Below, piece after piece: positions 20,279 to 37,284 of a DNA stretch of 37,284 bases. This DNA is from Candidatus Eiseniibacteriota bacterium. GTDB taxonomy: Bacteria > Arandabacterota > Arandabacteria > JAGLYR01. Both the position numbers and the translations under genes were made by a program. The stretch is taken from NCBI GenBank assembly GCA_023132135.1, contig JAGLYR010000059.1, forward strand, positions 1-37,284, read 5' to 3'. A model generated the notes under the pieces. The model was given only the letters and a program-made list of their open reading frames with translations. It ran no database searches and was not told the origin of the DNA. How positions within the stretch are numbered: the first letter of the stretch is position 1; the number at the start of each line of letters is the position of its first letter.

Positions 20279-20376
20279 CGCACGTCTTTCAGCACCAGAG
20301 AGGCAGCGGCCGCCGCTTTCCACCGTCTATCGAGTCCCCTGGAGTCCCAGCGACGCGCGGGGCGGCTACGCCCGAA
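20279..20376. repeat. Dispersed repeat, copy A
   Basis: About 98 bases running from GCACGTCTTTCAGCACC to GCGGCTACGCC. It is nearly identical to 22304-22393 and partly similar to 24344-24420 (shared CGTCTTTC-GCAC and CGAGTCCCCTGGAGTCCC). No coding frame is convincing. Confidence 0.7.
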
Positions 20377-20465
20377 ATCCGGGACAGAGCCCTAATTAGA
20401 TACTCGCATTCCCTGCAATAGCTTTCATCGTCCTGTTTCGGCGAACTAGAGGATTGGGGCTCTGT

Positions 20466-22303: not shown

Positions 22304-22393
22304 GGTCTTTCGGCACCAGAGAGGCAGCGGCCGCCGCTTTCCACCGTCTATCGAGTCCCCTGGAGTCCCAGCGACGCGCGGGGTGGCTACGCC
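22304..22393. repeat. Dispersed repeat, copy B
   Basis: Nearly identical to copy A (20279-20376) from GTCTTTC through GGCTACGCC, including CCACCGTCTATCGAGTCCCC. It runs into the 3' end of the four-helix-bundle gene, so it has supplied that gene's last codons. Confidence 0.7.
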
Positions 22394-22776
22394 AGTAAAT
22401 CTTCGCTGCCCGGTTTTCGGCTCTCGGATCTCGATCCCTGGCGCTTCTCTATGAGTCCGAACAACATCTTCGATATCACATCGAGCTGACGGCCTAGTTC
22501 GTTGTGTGTTTCGGCTCCGATGAGCCCTCGCCGCTTGGCAATCTCAAGAAGTGGTATACACTCGTGAGCGGAGGCACGGGCGATGACGAAGAAGTGCCTG
22601 CGGTCCTTGCCTCCATACCGGCCGTTGCCCTCTGCGATGTTTGCCGCGATCGACACGGCGGCGCGGTTGAGTTGGTCCGCAAGGTAGTACTTGCCCCGGG
22701 GGAAACTCTCGGTCAGCAATGTGATCCGGTCTGCGAAATCCAAGGCTTCGTGATAGATTCGCAGTTTCTCGACCTT
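22387..22776 (-). pseudogene. Four-helix-bundle protein (23S rRNA IVP type), start codon lost
   Basis: The protein 'KLRIYHEALDFADRITLLTESFPRG...LADQLNRAAVSIAANIAEGNGR' is a clear member of the four-helix-bundle family originally described from intervening sequences in 23S rRNA genes. The family N-terminus (KLRIYHEAL) is present in frame up to 22776, but no ATG or GTG is available there. Only a TTG inside the domain (22743) could initiate, so the gene is probably decayed or 5'-replaced. The C-terminal RQGSRSESRKPGSEDLLA is encoded by heptamer-array and repeat DNA, not by the family domain. A second 5' piece of such a gene, with ATG, lies at 24085. Confidence 0.75.
22723..22773. repeat. 51-bp direct repeat, left copy
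   Basis: It starts GATCCGG and ends GAC. It matches 24023-24073 at 40 of 51 positions in the same orientation. Both copies are the 5' coding part of four-helix-bundle genes and flank the aminotransferase gene. Confidence 0.8.
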
Positions 22777-24343: not shown

Positions 24344-24420
24344 GCGCACGTCTTTCGGCACTACAAGGGCTCATGCCGCCGTCTTCCGCCATCTTTCGAG
24401 TCCCCTGGAGTCCCCTCCAG
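24344..24420. repeat. Dispersed repeat, copy C (diverged)
   Basis: It shares GCGCACGTCTTTCGGCAC and CGAGTCCCCTGGAGTCCC with copies A and B, but the middle has diverged. It follows the tmRNA-like segment by 29 bases. The remaining spacer to 24695 shows no gene. Confidence 0.6.
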
Positions 24421-24695
24421 TCCCCTGGAATCCACCCCCGTCTTGGAGATATTTTGGAGACGGGAGCGCATAGGACCAGGGAGACTGTAGACGAGATGAA
24501 GGCCAACATACGCCGGACCACCTGGGGGAGCGAGCATAAGGTCATACGCCAGAGATCACAGATCTGAACCGTTGTTCCCTCCGCTTTGGCATTTGTCCCT
24601 AGGCTCTGAAACCGGAATCCGCGCTAAGGGGATTGGACGACTTGACAGGTGGGTGTTCGTTAGTTCCCGGCAAGGAACCAGCGGCAGCCGATCGA

Positions 24696-27045: not shown

Positions 27046-27082
27046 AAAAAAAACGGTCCTCGCTCATCCCGAGCGAGGACCG
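27046..27082 (-). terminator. Rho-independent terminator of the RNA gene
   Basis: A perfect 12-bp stem CGGTCCTCGCTC/GAGCGAGGACCG with a five-base loop, followed on the minus strand by eight T. This is the strongest terminator in the window. Confidence 0.9.
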
Positions 27083-27283
27083 CGACTTACCCGCCGCGGG
27101 TGAACGCACGCTCGACGATTCCCATAATCCCGGTTGGGCAGCTCTGCGGAAGGCAAGAACGCATGGCTTGTTCCCTTCACTTCGGCTGCGCAGTTGATGG
27201 CCAGAAAAGCAGATCTGGCCAAAGGCATGCCTAGAAAATGCTGTGCAGCGCCCCCAACCGCCATCGGAATCAGCAATTACCCG
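27046..27283 (-). ncRNA. Candidate structured small RNA (about 237 nt)
   Basis: An isolated minus-strand transcription unit with a near-consensus promoter (27289-27317), a strong terminator, and no convincing protein between them. The transcript can fold as a three-way junction. The closing stem is GATTCC (27266-27271) with GGAATC (27117-27122) plus CGGTTGGG (27253-27260) with CCCAACCG (27131-27138). Arm A is GCTGCACAG (27241-27249) with CTGCGCAGC (27185-27193), holding the hairpin GGCCAGA/TCTGGCC (27199-27220). Arm B is GAAGG...CAAG with CTTG-CCTTC (27149-27178). I do not recognise it as tmRNA, RNase P, SRP or 6S RNA. A 12-codon frame (MGIVERAFTRGG) and a 70-codon frame lie within it; the latter shows no family and is hard to reconcile with the pairing. 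Confidence 0.6.
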
Positions 27284-27288
27284 TGGTC

Positions 27289-27317
27289 ACTATAACAGAG
27301 ACTCCTATGGAAGTCAA
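27289..27317 (-). promoter_or_regulatory. Near-consensus sigma-70 promoter of the RNA gene
   Basis: On the minus strand: TTGACT (27312-27317), 17-base spacer, TATAGT (27289-27294). The transcript would start near 27282. Confidence 0.75.
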
Positions 27318-27393
27318 GATCTAATATGGATGCCAAGATCTAACTATTTAGATCGCACTATTCTCGATCAGCGTAAAACCCAGATCGATCGAG
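27306..27393. promoter_or_regulatory. Tandem and inverted operator-like repeats
   Basis: Two abutting 19-base repeats (27306-27324 and 27325-27343) begin TATGGA and end CAAGATCTAA, 17 of 19 identical; the first covers the -35 of the RNA promoter. They are followed by the inverted repeats GATCTAA/TTAGATC (27337-27354) and CTCGATC/GATCGAG (27363-27393). Together these look like binding sites for a dedicated regulator. Confidence 0.55.
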
Positions 27394-27793: not shown

Positions 27794-28474
27794 TCAGCCC
27801 AATCGGCTGGCAATCTCGGGGTGTCTGGCGACGATGCTGTCGCCCACTCCCTGGAGGAGATTCCTGATATTCTCCGCCCCCTCTGGATTGGTCTCCGCTA
27901 TCTTGGCGAGATCAACAATCCCATCCAGGAAGGAGTCGCCTCCGCCAACCTGGCCGCCAGCTGACTCGCTTCCCACCGTGCTTTTCTGCTCGAGTCTGGC
28001 CTGCTCAACAAGGTCCATGAGGCATTGGATAAACTTCGGGAGGTCCTTGGCCTCAATCTGACCCTCGGCTCCTTCGATCAGCTGGAGGATCTTGTTTGCC
28101 GCCCGTCCGAGGGTTTGTAGTCGTTCCTTCTCATTCTCCACGAGGATCTCGGCCGTCAGCTCATGCAGCTTCCGCCTTAGGTCTCTGATTTCGCAATCGA
28201 AGTCTGCGTCCCAGCTCTTCAGTGTAGTCAGCGATCGAGGGGCTCGACAGCCGAATTGCTCTTGAAGCAAGCGCAGGGTCCCCGCGAGGCTCACGGGTGT
28301 CGGAAACCGCGCTCTTGCCATGATGAAGGCCTGCGTCACTGCCGGCGGATGCTTCTTCTGCCCACGTTTCCTTGTCCTGAGCTTCAGCACCGCCGGCTTC
28401 CGCGGCCCGGTACTCCGGCCGCTGGAACATCGGACCTTCCGTGCCCGGTCCTTGTCCACAGGTCCCGAAGTCAT
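27794..28474 (-). CDS. Helical/coiled-coil protein, unknown, possibly phage-derived
   Basis: 226 residues from ATG 28474, preceded by GGGGGTG. The N-terminal about 50 residues are very basic (RKPAVLKLRTRKRGQKKH). Next comes a helix-turn-helix-like stretch (TPVSLAGTLRLLQEQFGCRAPRSLTTLKSWDADFD), then a long amphipathic helix region (RDLRRKLHELTAEILVENEKERLQTLG...). The pattern of basic DNA-binding start, HTH and coiled coil is reminiscent of phage small terminase subunits, but I cannot name a family. An internal ATG at 28321 (MARARFPTPVSL) is an alternative start. The frame continues after the TGA (see 27539-27793). Confidence 0.55.
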   Translation of the reverse strand: MTSGPVDKDRARKVRCSSGRSTGPRKPAVLKLRTRKRGQKKHPPAVTQAFIMARARFPTPVSLAGTLRLLQEQFGCRAPRSLTTLKSWDADFDCEIRDLRRKLHELTAEILVENEKERLQTLGRAANKILQLIEGAEGQIEAKDLPKFIQCLMDLVEQARLEQKSTVGSESAGGQVGGGDSFLDGIVDLAKIAETNPEGAENIRNLLQGVGDSIVARHPEIASRLG

Positions 28475-28580
28475 CTGGATCACCCCCGTGCCAGTCCGCG
28501 TGTGTCTCATCGTGGCAGATCGCGAACAGCTGTTATCTGGGTCAGCAACCAGCCAGTTTCACTCTGTTTAGGCTCCAGAC

Positions 28581-31540: not shown

Positions 31541-32584
31541 TCATTTCGGAGTAGTCACAGTCCGGGAGCTGAATGGGTGGAAATCAGGAACCCGACTGTA
31601 GATCATACCCCCGTCCATTTCGTGAACCGCTGCGTCTGGAAAGAGCTCTTTTGCCTCAAGCGGATTAAGGGCTTTGGGGTTGAGGCATATTGACAAGCCC
31701 TGCCCCCAAGTTTCAGGGAAGTCGGGGTCACCGATCTCGTATTCGAAGATCATCGGGGCGACGGCATTCGGGTCAGGATTGTAGCACGTTCCAACGCGAA
31801 CCATCCTTATACTATCACATCGGTGTCGTCCAAGTTGCCCCATGCGACCGAATTTGGTCACCGTCCCACTGTTACTGAACATGACTGCACTGATGTTCTC
31901 TCCTTCAGGCTCGAAGAAGAAACCCGACGGCACCGATTTCTCACCGTGGACATGAGTCTCGACACGCCTGGGTTTGACAGTGAGATTGCCCTGCGAATCG
32001 TGTTCCCACTCGTGTCGATAACCGTAGAGGTAGGTCATGAGTGCCGAATCGGAGAAGATCAGAGACCCAGCTTCGGAGAAGTTTTCGATGGCAAACACTA
32101 TCGGCTTGCCTCTGACGTGGTCGAGTTCCCAGTAGCGCTTCTGAAGCTTCGAGTACAGCGCACTCCCCAGCTTGATTGGGAGCAAGTTCTGCTGCTTGTG
32201 GAGCACGGCGTGTTCGATTTCTTCTCCACTAGCTGTGGGCGATTCTGCCTCTTCGCCTTGTGTAGGGTTCGCTGTCACAGCCTCAACGCAGATTTCAGAG
32301 TCGTCCTTGGCAGCGACGAAGTCCGGCCGAGCAGCGAGACGCACCACGTTGAAGCCAGAGCTCGATAGACAGGCGTGCAGGTACAACTCCCACACTCTTG
32401 CGTTGAAACCGGAGGTTTGGAATTGCTCGACGAAGTTCCCATCCACATCGTCAAAGGTGTCAAAGACTTCCCTCATCGTGCCGCGGGCGGGGGCGAAAAG
32501 TCTGCTGGTCCTGAGCACTTGAAACGACGGATGTAGGTTCGCCTCCAAGACAATGGGTGTGAAGAGATCCGGTTTCCTGGCCAT
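31541..32584 (-). CDS. Unknown protein with degenerate PD-(D/E)XK-like motif, downstream of R-M genes
   Basis: 347 residues, soluble; start ATG 32584 with GGAG upstream. The stretch WELYLHACLSSSGFNVVRLA (Glu66), RPDFVAAKDDSEICVEAVTA (Pro87-Asp88, Glu101) follows the layout of PD-(D/E)XK nucleases (helix Glu, PD, then hydrophobic-E-x-K), but the position of the catalytic Lys is occupied by Val/Thr, so it may be a divergent or inactive nuclease. The rest is beta-rich with no domain I recognise. It is transcribed in the same direction as the restriction endonuclease and methyltransferase, 120 bases behind the latter, and may be a third component of that system or an independent defence gene. Confidence 0.65.
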   Translation of the reverse strand: MARKPDLFTPIVLEANLHPSFQVLRTSRLFAPARGTMREVFDTFDDVDGNFVEQFQTSGFNARVWELYLHACLSSSGFNVVRLAARPDFVAAKDDSEICVEAVTANPTQGEEAESPTASGEEIEHAVLHKQQNLLPIKLGSALYSKLQKRYWELDHVRGKPIVFAIENFSEAGSLIFSDSALMTYLYGYRHEWEHDSQGNLTVKPRRVETHVHGEKSVPSGFFFEPEGENISAVMFSNSGTVTKFGRMGQLGRHRCDSIRMVRVGTCYNPDPNAVAPMIFEYEIGDPDFPETWGQGLSICLNPKALNPLEAKELFPDAAVHEMDGGMIYSRVPDFHPFSSRTVTTPK

Positions 32585-32704
32585 GACTGTGACTCCGGCG
32601 GATCTGGACTAACTGCGATCTTCGGCTGCGAAGAGGGAGCTGGCAAGCCGAGCCGGCCCCGCGGTCCCACCATCCGATGTCTGAAGTGTACGGTCCCGCA
32701 ACGG

Positions 32705-33643
32705 CTACATGTCCGCCACGTCGAATAGCTTCGGGGAGAGGTGGTTGGTCGCGAAGGCCTGGATTCTCCTGTTCGCAAGCTTCACGTATTCTTGATCGAT
32801 GTCATAGCCGACATAATGGCGTCCTGCCTTGATCGCGGCGATTCCCGTCTGACCACTCCCCATGAAGGGATCCAGTACAACGTCGTCGCTGTACGTGTAC
32901 AGCTGGATCAGCCTGTAAGGGAGCTCGACGGGGAAAGGCGCAGGGTGGCCTGTCTTCTTCGCAGACTCGGAGGGAAATTCCCAGACACTCTTCGTGAACT
33001 CTAGGAACTCGTCCCGCGTTATCGTCCCTTCCCTCCCATCCGGCGCTGGCCTCTTGAATGCACCTTTGGAAAACACGAGGATGTATTCGTGGGTGTCGCG
33101 GAGCGTGGGATTCGAGGGCGACATCCAGCTTCCCCAAGCAGTGGAGGTCCCAGCACTGGAACCCTTCTGCCAAATGACCTCTCCCCTCATCAGGAACCCA
33201 AGGTCGATCATCTCGCTCGCTATGGAGGCATGAATCGGTAGATAGGGCCGCCGGCCAAGGTTAGCCACGTTCACACATGCCCTCCCACCAGGGACAAGTA
33301 CTCTGTGGACCTCCTCCCAGATTTTTCTCAGAAAGGCCAAGTACTCCGCCAGAGTCAGATCTTCATCGTAGTCCTTGCCGACATTGTAGGGGGGTGAGGT
33401 GACCATGAGGTGGACGCTGTTGTCAGGTAGCTCCTTCATCTGCTCTGAGGGGCCACAGATGACCTTGTCCAGAGCATTCTCCGGCACTCGGTTCTCCACG
33501 TATTGAACCGCCGCCACGTTTGGCAGTTGCTCGTACATCCTGCTGTTGTAGAAACGGGATGAGTCGTGGCTCACCCTGCCCGGAGACCCAAACGAGCTCG
33601 TCGCAGTGCCTCTACGTGGCCCCTTGCTGCTATTCTTTGGCAC
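32705..33643 (-). CDS. Beta-class DNA methyltransferase (N4-cytosine or N6-adenine)
   Basis: 312 residues from a GTG at 33643. I choose this start because GGAGG lies within the end of the upstream gene and the GTG begins one base after that gene's TGA; it also includes the family N-terminus GTATSSFGSPGRVSHDSSRF. The catalytic motif IV is TSPPY (residues 82-86) and comes first. The SAM-binding motif VLDPFMGSGQTG is near the C-terminus, followed by YVGYDID, so the order is IV-TRD-I, the beta class. S/TPPY motifs are usual in N4-cytosine enzymes, though N6-adenine cannot be excluded. It protects host DNA from the coupled ThaI-like endonuclease. An in-frame extension to 33715 overlaps the endonuclease gene and seems unlikely. 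Confidence 0.9.
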   Translation of the reverse strand: MPKNSSKGPRRGTATSSFGSPGRVSHDSSRFYNSRMYEQLPNVAAVQYVENRVPENALDKVICGPSEQMKELPDNSVHLMVTSPPYNVGKDYDEDLTLAEYLAFLRKIWEEVHRVLVPGGRACVNVANLGRRPYLPIHASIASEMIDLGFLMRGEVIWQKGSSAGTSTAWGSWMSPSNPTLRDTHEYILVFSKGAFKRPAPDGREGTITRDEFLEFTKSVWEFPSESAKKTGHPAPFPVELPYRLIQLYTYSDDVVLDPFMGSGQTGIAAIKAGRHYVGYDIDQEYVKLANRRIQAFATNHLSPKLFDVADM

Positions 33644-33644
33644 C

Positions 33645-34283
33645 TCAGTCGATCCTCCAGTTTTCCACCCACCGCTCGTAGGGATCATATTTGTCGGTGG
33701 GTCTCCGCCACTCAATCTCGATCTTCTTCGTAAGACCGTGCTCGACCAGCGCTCGCATCGCCTCCCTGCTTATTTCTACGCCTCGTGGGTTAGTTCCTGG
33801 CTTTGGCAGCTTGAAGTATCTCTCACTGCTCAGATGCTGGATAACGCCTCGCTGCGCCTCGACGGGGATGTAGTACAGTCCACCCTGTTTCCCCCAAGTG
33901 ATCTGCACCACAAGGTAGTCGCAAGATGGTTCGAATTCCCGAACGAACTTCCTCGCCCGCTCGGCGTCAACCGTCCAGATTGCCTTCACCGCCCCAATTC
34001 TATTGGAGGAGGTCGTCAACGTCTTGATCGAAAGAGGCTCACCCGAGACTTTCACATCCACTTCGTGCTCGGTGATCGGAAGCTCCGTTTCGACGTTCTC
34101 CGGACCAAACCTGTGAACTAGCAGGGCGACCAGAATCCGCTCCCGTAGGGAACCAACCTCCATGCCGATCTTCCCGGCCCGAGAGGAGTCCCTTTCTGCA
34201 TAGTGAAACAAGTGGGGAAGACGACGCTTGATCTTCTCGACAAGCTCGGAATCATCGAATAGCTTCTCGACGGTTCGTCCCAT
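33645..34283 (-). CDS. ThaI-like type II restriction endonuclease
   Basis: 212 residues from ATG 34283; a GTG one codon earlier is an alternative. Phrases typical of the ThaI endonuclease family as I recall it are KIKRRLPHLFHYAERDSSRA, 'GKIGMEVGSLRERILVALLVHRFG', LSIKT, KAIWTVDAERARKF and KLPKPGTNPRGVEIS. The likely metal site is EVDVKV...LSIK (Asp76, Lys87), a PD-(D/E)XK variant with Ser in the middle position. ThaI cuts CGCG; whether this enzyme shares that site is inference. The gene is coupled to the methyltransferase (one base apart), the usual R-M operon layout. A promoter with palindromic sites lies upstream at 34353-34405. Confidence 0.8.
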   Translation of the reverse strand: MGRTVEKLFDDSELVEKIKRRLPHLFHYAERDSSRAGKIGMEVGSLRERILVALLVHRFGPENVETELPITEHEVDVKVSGEPLSIKTLTTSSNRIGAVKAIWTVDAERARKFVREFEPSCDYLVVQITWGKQGGLYYIPVEAQRGVIQHLSSERYFKLPKPGTNPRGVEISREAMRALVEHGLTKKIEIEWRRPTDKYDPYERWVENWRID

Positions 34284-34352
34284 CACTCACTCTGCTCTGA
34301 AATGCGGGATAGTAGATTCCGCCCGTGCAACGGTCCAACCGTCGCTGACCGG

Positions 34353-34464: not shown

Positions 34465-37284
34465 CTAACGCTTCTTCTTCCGGCGCGCTAGGTGAGAATT
34501 GACCGGTGTCCCTGCTTCAGCCTCGCCGAGTTTCTTCTCCAGCCGCTCAAGATCACATGTGAGGCCGAGAGCATCTGCTGACCAGAATAGCTCGGCCAGA
34601 CCCACCACCCCAACTGCCTCAGTCAAGCGATCGTGCCATTCTGCAAGCTCACTCATAGTCACCTTCTCGTCCCCGCTCCACTCCTCGCGAGGCACGAGCT
34701 TGTCGGTAAGAGTCATTACTAGCGAAAAGCACTCTTCCAGCATCGGTCTCTCACTGAGTTCCGCTTCTGACAGTGTCTCGAAACGCCCCCAAAGTGCCTC
34801 ACGCTGGTCGATCACGTCCTGGGCTAACGTGCTAAAGGCATCCTGGTTCTCCCGGATATATCGCTGCGCAATACCAGCGCCCAGATCGTCGAGCTCTTCT
34901 CGATCTCGTCCGAGGTTGGCGAAGTGCCCGCACATTTCCCACAGGCGCGCCACTGTATCCACGAACTCCTGGAACTCCCGCAACCTCGGCAACTGCCAAT
35001 GCTCGAGTCCAGTACGCTGCCAGGTCACATCTGGAACGGGAAGAGCTATGTGCCGCCACTCCTTACTCTCCCCGGCGGTCTGCATGTGTACCGCGCCCCA
35101 CAAGTGCGGATAGGCTGTCTTTCGCAAGCTCTCGCCGGCAACCAGAGGAACGGCAACAATATGCTGCCAATACAACTGGGCAACGAACCCCTGCGTATCA
35201 TCGTCACGACAGGCGGCCAGAGCGCTCCGCAGACATCCTTCGACGACCCTCGAGGCATCCAGAAGGCAGCTGGGATCGGAGGCATCGCAGGCGATCCACA
35301 TCGTGGGCTTGGATTCCCATCGGGCATGGGTGTGGAGCACTCTGAAATCGATACCGTCCCCGCTGATCCGAGTCAAAGCCCTGTCCAGCTTTGTTCGGAG
35401 GTCGGCCAGAATCCGCTCTGTGTCAAGATTCCTCAGAACCTGAAGCCGCGTTCTTCGGTCAGCCGCGTCGCGAGTAGAACCTGGGTGCTCCACGAATTCG
35501 TGCCAGAGGAGATAAAGCCCTGAAAGTTCGCGCATCTCGCGCGGTGACAATCGTACATGCTCTTCGATTTCAACCCTTTCGGCGAAGACTCCTCCCAACT
35601 CGAGCTGAAAGCCATCGATGCCCTTGCACAGATCTGCCAGGTTCACCTTCGTTAGTCGTCGATTCTTTGCGTTAATACCGGCCTTCTTGAGCCGGATCGC
35701 TGTCTGCTTGCGCTCCTGCTTCCCCTTGATCTTACCCATCGTGCCATTCCACACCAGCACGGGCGGTGCCTGGGTGAGGAAGTTGTCCAGGGCGCGCGCA
35801 TATTCCCGAGCGACTTTGCTGTATCGGCTGGCCGCCTCCTTATGCTGTCCCAGCGTCTTCCCCGCTCGCTGCGCTGGCAATTCGTCATCTCCTGCTGAGT
35901 CCAGTCCCCATTCGTCCACAGCGCATTGCGGTAGGAACGCAACTCGGAAGCAGTCCGTCTTGAGTCGCTCCCATCTGTCCAAGCTAAGGTGTTCCTCTAT
36001 GATGTTGACTGGCCTCTTGCTCTCGTAGTGACCCAGTATCCCCGCCCGCAACTCAGCGCATGAGTCGAGTACGCTCTGGCGGATTCGCAAGACCTCATTC
36101 GAGAGATCCGCCCAGGTGGGCAAGCGGAACTGGAAATCAGCCAGCTGTGAGAAGAGGTGGTTCAGCTCCGGCCCCCAGCGCGGCAGAAGGTACTTCTTGA
36201 GGATTCCAGTCTTGACCGATTCGTCATGTGGAGGATCCACCAGGCTCGTGAGGTGCCCAATGCCCTTGCAGCCATATCGTTCCTTGAACGGCAGAACACA
36301 GCGGATGACACGGAGCTTGGAGACGACAAGGTCATTCAGAGACGGCTTCGCTGTCTGTGTTGTGCTCGGATCCTGCGAGCTCAAACCTATCTCTTCCCCT
36401 GTTAGCAGAAAGACCGCGGTTACGAGGTCGTTTTCCTCCACCAGCGATATTGCGCCGAGCGCAGATCGCAGCTTCTCCAGAATTCGTTCCCGATTTCTCT
36501 CGTACCACTCCGAATACCTCTCTCCCCACAGTTCAAACACACCGACGCAGGTCTCGCACATCGACTGAATATCATCGCATTGAAGCACAGCTGTGAGCAC
36601 ATCCTCTGATAACCAGTCGCAGGCTGGGCTTTCAGTCCTCAGGTGGCCAAGCCAGAAGCACACTTCACCCAGAGAACGCCAGTCCCGATCAGTTGCAGGT
36701 GGTGGGACAGACTCGCTCCTGAATCGCATGAAATTCTCGTAGTGAGTAAAGATACCCCGCGGATCCGCTTGCCGAGCCGCGAACCCGTGCGCCGCTTCAG
36801 CAGCGCGTTGGCCGGTTTCACCTAAACCCGAGAGCATCGCTGGTGACTCGAAATCCGAGATGCCGGCAACATCAGAGTTGAGCATGAACCACCAGCCCTC
36901 ATTACAACGCTCGAAGGCATCCCGAATAAGTTCTTCGTTCTCATCGACATAGTCCCGTACACCGACCCAAAGCACCGCACGTACACAACCCCGCACACCC
37001 GTCCATGTCTTTGGGTGGAAGGAGTTGACCGAATCCAGAATGGCAGCGCGCGAGCCGGCTTGGTGCAGGAAGGAAAAGAGCAGGAACCGCTCCAGATCCC
37101 GCTCTCGAATCAGCGGTAGCACACGAGCGGCAGCCTCTGGCCACGGTGAAAGCGCAGCATCGGTCAGCAATCTAGCCAATATGGTGGACCGGATAGGGTG
37201 CAGTGCGACGACATACCTTCCATCCGGCGTCAGGCGGAGGAAGTACTCCTTCTCAAAGGTGTCAACGCCGGAGTTGTTTGTCCC
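34465..37284 (-). CDS. C-terminal 939 residues of a very large protein, possibly STAND-type NTPase (partial)
   Basis: The frame is open to the window edge, so the N-terminus is missing. The first visible residues (TFEKEYFLRLTPDGRYVVAL then HPIRSTILARLL) look like the winged-helix segment that follows the NTPase core in STAND ATPases, which is why I suggest that class; no Walker motif is inside the window. The remainder is long, helical and Trp/Cys-containing, with no domain I recognise. It has a basic middle (KIKGKQERKQTAIRLKKAGI) and ends in a Lys/Arg cluster (ARRKKKR). Very large STAND proteins often act in anti-phage defence, and the adjoining R-M operon fits, but this is context only. The stop at 34465 precedes the R-M promoter. 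Confidence 0.65.
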   Translation of the reverse strand, partial: GTNNSGVDTFEKEYFLRLTPDGRYVVALHPIRSTILARLLTDAALSPWPEAAARVLPLIRERDLERFLLFSFLHQAGSRAAILDSVNSFHPKTWTGVRGCVRAVLWVGVRDYVDENEELIRDAFERCNEGWWFMLNSDVAGISDFESPAMLSGLGETGQRAAEAAHGFAARQADPRGIFTHYENFMRFRSESVPPPATDRDWRSLGEVCFWLGHLRTESPACDWLSEDVLTAVLQCDDIQSMCETCVGVFELWGERYSEWYERNRERILEKLRSALGAISLVEENDLVTAVFLLTGEEIGLSSQDPSTTQTAKPSLNDLVVSKLRVIRCVLPFKERYGCKGIGHLTSLVDPPHDESVKTGILKKYLLPRWGPELNHLFSQLADFQFRLPTWADLSNEVLRIRQSVLDSCAELRAGILGHYESKRPVNIIEEHLSLDRWERLKTDCFRVAFLPQCAVDEWGLDSAGDDELPAQRAGKTLGQHKEAASRYSKVAREYARALDNFLTQAPPVLVWNGTMGKIKGKQERKQTAIRLKKAGINAKNRRLTKVNLADLCKGIDGFQLELGGVFAERVEIEEHVRLSPREMRELSGLYLLWHEFVEHPGSTRDAADRRTRLQVLRNLDTERILADLRTKLDRALTRISGDGIDFRVLHTHARWESKPTMWIACDASDPSCLLDASRVVEGCLRSALAACRDDDTQGFVAQLYWQHIVAVPLVAGESLRKTAYPHLWGAVHMQTAGESKEWRHIALPVPDVTWQRTGLEHWQLPRLREFQEFVDTVARLWEMCGHFANLGRDREELDDLGAGIAQRYIRENQDAFSTLAQDVIDQREALWGRFETLSEAELSERPMLEECFSLVMTLTDKLVPREEWSGDEKVTMSELAEWHDRLTEAVGVVGLAELFWSADALGLTCDLERLEKKLGEAEAGTPVNSHLARRKKKR

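Follow-up and report, generated by a model that had tools for sequence, protein, structure and literature searches.

What kind of gene occupies a stretch of about 1.5 kb without clear genes in the genome of a Candidatus Eiseniibacteriota bacterium, and on what might its product act? The DNA analyzed, referred to below as the window, is 37,284 nt long and comprises positions 1-37,284 of contig JAGLYR010000059.1 (assembly GCA_023132135.1; GTDB lineage Arandabacterota, Arandabacteria, JAGLYR01). An initial sequence-only reading had placed here an orphan gene for a structured RNA, with promoter and terminator of its own, and had given no strand. The whole RNA gene lies on the minus strand, with the following elements:

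27289..27317, minus strand: promoter TTGACT-17-(TG)TATAGT, recognized from the sequence
27046..27282, minus strand: predicted transcript of ~237 nt, its start near 27282 placed by the -10 element
27046..27083, minus strand: intrinsic terminator with a perfect 12-bp stem (27054-27065/27071-27082) and T8

The promoter is of the sigma-70 type with an extended -10 element (TG before the -10) and matches the consensus at 10 of 12 positions. Shuffled sequences never contain the pattern TTGACWN16-18TATARTG, which the window has once. Across the genome (3.4 Mb), the same promoter form was found nine times versus zero for a reversed control, which argues that this form is meaningful in this organism. 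No other terminator in the window matches this one in strength; in simulated windows (n = 300), terminators of equal strength appeared at 0.003 per window, and promoter-terminator pairs in 0 of 300. The distance of about 235 nt between the two signals corresponds to an RNA of ~237 nt. Given the recurrence of the promoter form and the lack of pairs in the 300 simulated windows, a real transcription unit with its own promoter and intrinsic terminator is well supported by these signals. Thus, the near-consensus promoter, the 12-bp terminator with T8 and the ~237 nt between them, all claimed earlier, hold up on the minus strand.

The promoter also carries a repeated element:

27306..27343, minus strand: two 19-bp repeats TTAGATCTTGRCWTCCATA, arranged head-to-tail and covering the -35; a candidate operator recognized from the sequence

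A search of the organism's own genome, allowing up to three mismatches, found no other copy of the 19-bp repeat, which suggests that the repeats over the -35 serve as a local operator. Within the transcript no tandem repeats were detected, the sole repeat being that of the promoter. A Type III toxin-antitoxin RNA (ToxI-like) was ruled out because the tandem repeats are present only in the promoter and not in the RNA.

A comparison with Rfam (6S, tmRNA, SRP RNA, RNase P and the rest) produced no match at the gathering thresholds and, on a 451-nt stretch, none at E ≤ 10, in agreement with the earlier statement that no known RNA class is recognizable. An ordinary 6S RNA is encoded on contig C41 of the same genome (81 bits), and a second 6S copy was excluded on this ground together with the negative Rfam result. 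Nucleotide searches found no homologue among 60 relatives, in the eight genomes searched from the phylum, or in plasmids and phages; the best matches in relatives, plasmids and phages were short (15-41 nt), and those inspected in relatives did not extend further. The covariance search suggested by the sequence-only reading was run with a structure model over 386 genomes and returned two matches, with E values of 0.04 and 0.08, in line with chance. Scanning viral contigs with patterns, and 84,980 genomes with a 19-mer, likewise gave no convincing match to the structure model; these pattern scans require exact matches, so that diverged copies would escape them. One weak match of 82 nt, in a MAG of Dormibacteraeota, scored 18.3 bits (E 0.0019 for the four loci pre-selected by 19-mer) and was attributed to this pre-selection. 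The signal statistics, these searches and the codon score given below uphold the proposed orphan RNA gene, bounded by a promoter and a terminator of its own. The locus is therefore well supported as a stand-alone small-RNA gene, a known kind of gene represented by a new member that falls in no known RNA class.

The genes around this small-RNA gene include several with phage or defence affiliations:

27794..28510, minus strand: orphan phage small-terminase-like protein, the upstream neighbour, with a paralogue on contig C108
30189-31376, plus strand: 395-aa protein whose C-terminal part holds a predicted pPIWI-associated nuclease domain (PF18165, E 1e-28)
31541-34286, minus strand: defence cluster in which a PD-T7-1/PD-T7-5-type gene has an N4/N6 methyltransferase and a ThaI-type restriction enzyme upstream of it
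31541..32584, minus strand: the PD-T7-1/PD-T7-5-type phage-defence gene of this cluster, 347 aa (PADLOC PD-T7-1 E=1.4e-123, PD-T7-5 E=6.2e-51)

The product of 27794-28510 shares 29% identity with a protein whose gene, on contig C108, immediately precedes that of a phage large terminase (phrog_675, E 4.9e-88), and from this context we infer that the product is a small terminase. In the window the gene stands without an accompanying large terminase, the other genes of the C108 prophage have no convincing counterpart there, and no similar RNA was found near the paralogous terminase on C108. Farther out, upstream of the RNA gene, lie the pPIWI-associated nuclease-like gene, the PD-T7-1/PD-T7-5-type gene and the ThaI-type restriction-modification pair; no pPIWI match was obtained among the window proteins scanned. 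The restriction-modification genes are adjoined by a gene for a 904-aa protein (34465-37179, minus strand) for which Pfam, NCBIfam, PHROGs and PADLOC give no significant match. The two genes downstream of the RNA gene have no family matches. The G+C content, about 0.60-0.63 on the left, drops to 0.55-0.59 around the RNA gene, and the two neighbours tested have no relatives in seven relatives from the class. The accessory-island setting described by the sequence-only reading is supported by the defence genes, the orphan small terminase, the lower G+C and the absence of these two neighbours from the class. The surroundings thus fit an acquired island of defence genes, perhaps a phage satellite or what remains of a prophage. 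Elsewhere in the window, an element of ~94 nt is present in three plus-strand copies about 2 kb apart (20284-20377, 22305-22398 and 24350-24443), the second and third being 96% and 68% identical to the first; the genome contains no further full copy.

Among these neighbours, the PD-T7-1-type gene is the candidate target of the RNA. PD-T7-1 came to light when anti-phage genes were functionally selected in E. coli, and it has been found in defence islands and prophages (PMC9519451). It was rare in the genomes searched, occurring in 2 of 386 (one besides the organism's own). The PD-T7-1 profile and many relatives have ~107 extra N-terminal residues compared with the 347-aa protein. The frame above the start at 32584 is open for eight codons only, the ATG is preceded by a Shine-Dalgarno-like GGAG, and residue 6 of the protein aligns to position 2 of the shorter PD-T7-5 profile; taken together, these features make a short form starting at 32584 a reasonable prediction. 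An inverted repeat AGATCCG/CGGATCT (32565-32610, minus strand) encloses the ribosome site and start codon of this gene, and the PD-T7-1 mRNA may also fold over its own start through it. The predicted pairing between the two transcripts involves these segments:

27198..27221, minus strand: apical hairpin UGGCCAG-AUCUGCUUUU-CUGGCCA of the RNA, predicted pair probability 0.93-1.0
27197..27216, minus strand: candidate antisense segment AGAUCUGCUUUUCUGGCCAU, formed by the loop and 3' arm of the apical hairpin, identified by sequence complementarity
32565..32584, minus strand: candidate target AUGGCCAGGAAACCGGAUCU, codons 1-7 of the PD-T7-1-type gene, identified by sequence complementarity

Between AGAUCUGCUUUUCUGGCCAU and AUGGCCAGGAAACCGGAUCU, 19 of 20 positions can pair (two as G-U, with one mismatch), giving a duplex of -27 kcal/mol. 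The hairpin loop is predicted to be unpaired, and 9 of its 10 bases join the predicted PD-T7-1 pairing, so a toehold would be available. Complementarity was compared after the fact over the start regions of 11 neighbouring genes using two scoring schemes. With opening costs subtracted, PD-T7-1 was the best of the 11 start regions (-11.4 vs -7.7 for the next), and the other ten genes showed nothing notable as antisense targets. When the RNA was shuffled, a match of this quality to any of the 11 genes had a P of 0.009 (-60..+40) or 0.0013 (-35..+22), and real 200-nt DNA decoys reached it in 8/712 or 3/712 cases (about 0.011 or 0.004). Over whole strands, roughly one site per 30-40 kb matches or exceeds this one in ungapped score, and in the ~15-kb flanks of PD-T7-1 relatives chance complementarity scores are expected to equal the signal. 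On this complementarity, an antisense role of the RNA against PD-T7-1 is a tentative proposition that falls appreciably below an even chance.

Our best explanation, held with the same reserve, is that the locus encodes a stand-alone regulatory small RNA of a mobile or defence island that would pair with the start of the PD-T7-1 mRNA and lower its translation. We infer transcription, in vivo pairing, the effect of the pairing and the role of the repeats, and the course of events would be as follows. RNA polymerase would start near 27282 on the minus strand, with a regulator possibly binding the two 19-bp repeats over the -35, and transcription would stop at the strong terminator at 27046 to release the ~237-nt RNA. 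The apical hairpin would present its unpaired loop, which would pair first, after which the 3' arm of the hairpin would be invaded. The partner would be the opening 20 nt of the PD-T7-1 mRNA, whose gene lies 5.3 kb upstream of the RNA gene, and the pairing would cover the start codon of that mRNA. Translation of PD-T7-1 would then fall, keeping a potentially costly defence protein low until needed. The fuller proposal, that a small RNA with a locally regulated promoter silences PD-T7-1 as an antitoxin-like RNA brake within the same island, near an orphan small terminase, is more doubtful, and we regard it as rather unlikely in its entirety.

The strongest alternative accepts the same small RNA and treats the PD-T7-1 match as chance: the RNA would act elsewhere, on mRNAs of the chromosome, of a prophage or of incoming phages, or on a protein. 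The transcription unit is equally sound under this alternative, the evidence for the target amounts only to p of about 0.01, and several sites in the window away from start codons equal or beat the PD-T7-1 site in accessibility-corrected energy, so that the PD-T7-1 site is not exceptional by this measure. However, the PD-T7-1 site falls exactly on a start codon, uses an accessible loop and surpasses the other 10 neighbours. We consider that action elsewhere comes fairly close to an even chance.

A further alternative follows from the predicted fold of the RNA, in which the apical hairpin is enclosed by a longer structure:

27117..27271, minus strand: closed body delimited by a predicted closing stem in two segments
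27149..27178, minus strand: arm B, outer 5 bp GAAGG/CCUUC, predicted pair probability 0.7-0.8

The closing stem consists of 6 bp (GATTCC/GGAATC, 27271-27266 with 27122-27117) and 8 bp (CGGTTGGG/CCCAACCG, 27260-27253 with 27138-27131), and its predicted pair probability of 0.86-1.0 agrees with the 6+8 bp stem read earlier from the letters. The two arms of that reading fared unevenly: the apical hairpin (about 1.0) and the outer 5 bp of arm B are predicted to form, in contrast to the inner 4 bp of arm B (0.07) and to arm A, whose stem pairing 8 of 9 positions is present in the letters and has a predicted pairing probability of only 0.02. On both the given and the transcribed strand, the fold energy of the whole stretch is significant, mostly through the contribution of the terminator. 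The transcript minus the terminator folds no better than shuffles (z about 0), the body delimited by the closing stem reaches z -2.2, and confident long-range pairing gets no further than p=0.08. Considering the z of about 0 and the p of 0.08, the stems are plausible and a special fold lacks statistical proof. The description of the RNA as structured, meaning that it has a defined functional fold, is accordingly reduced to a weakly supported prediction.

A conserved structured RNA of a new class, whose closing stem and two arms would bind some protein or ligand, perhaps one that belongs to a defence system or a phage satellite, would be consistent with the pair probabilities near 1 in the closing stem and apical hairpin, with the z of the body, and with the orphan small terminase and defence genes nearby. 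However, the energy without the terminator and the low probability of arm A argue against it, and since no homologue was found in the searched collections, there is no covariation to support such a class, which we judge improbable. Still less probable is a functionless locus, either a transcription unit that is degenerate or arose by chance, or the attenuated leader that a decayed gene has left behind. The ~1.5 kb without clear genes, the absence of conservation and the ordinary fold energy point in this direction, but neither signal is damaged, each lies close to consensus, and the terminator has no equal in the window.

The weakest alternative is a small-protein gene, based on one open frame:

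27276-27064, minus strand: open frame of 66-70 codons, from the open-reading-frame list

This frame spans most of the transcript, but an open frame of such length is not rare at the local G+C, its codon score of -0.13 per codon (mean +0.29 for the known genes of the window) lies inside the range of shifted frames (mean -0.29, 95th percentile +0.14), no ribosome-binding site was seen ahead of its TTG or ATG, its stop codon falls inside the terminator stem-loop and it has no protein family match. The transcript does not look coding by these measures, and translation of the frame, rejected on its codon score, is the least probable of all the readings.

The pairing, if true, would provide an RNA brake on a defence gene, bearing on the question of how bacteria hold costly single-gene defence proteins down between infections. 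If the pairing is not true, the locus would still be a clean small-RNA gene with no relatives in our searches, from a sparsely sampled phylum (8 genomes searched).

In comparison with known systems, the RNA resembles 6S RNA (RF00013) in its predicted rod-like closing stem with an enlarged centre, and differs in having no Rfam match at E ≤ 10 and in the presence of the ordinary 6S RNA on contig C41. With the trans-encoded antisense small RNAs of bacteria it shares its own promoter and intrinsic terminator, a length of ~240 nt and a predicted hairpin loop with imperfect complementarity to a start codon. In contrast to those RNAs, no homologue was found for it, and its target is putative and located in the same island, 5.3 kb apart. 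The antisense RNAs of Type I toxin-antitoxin systems (SymR, Sok and their kin) repress translation of a costly protein encoded nearby, and the RNA described here would likewise repress a potentially costly protein encoded in its vicinity. Unlike them, it does not overlap the gene on which it would act, and that gene encodes a 347-aa defence protein rather than a small hydrophobic toxin.
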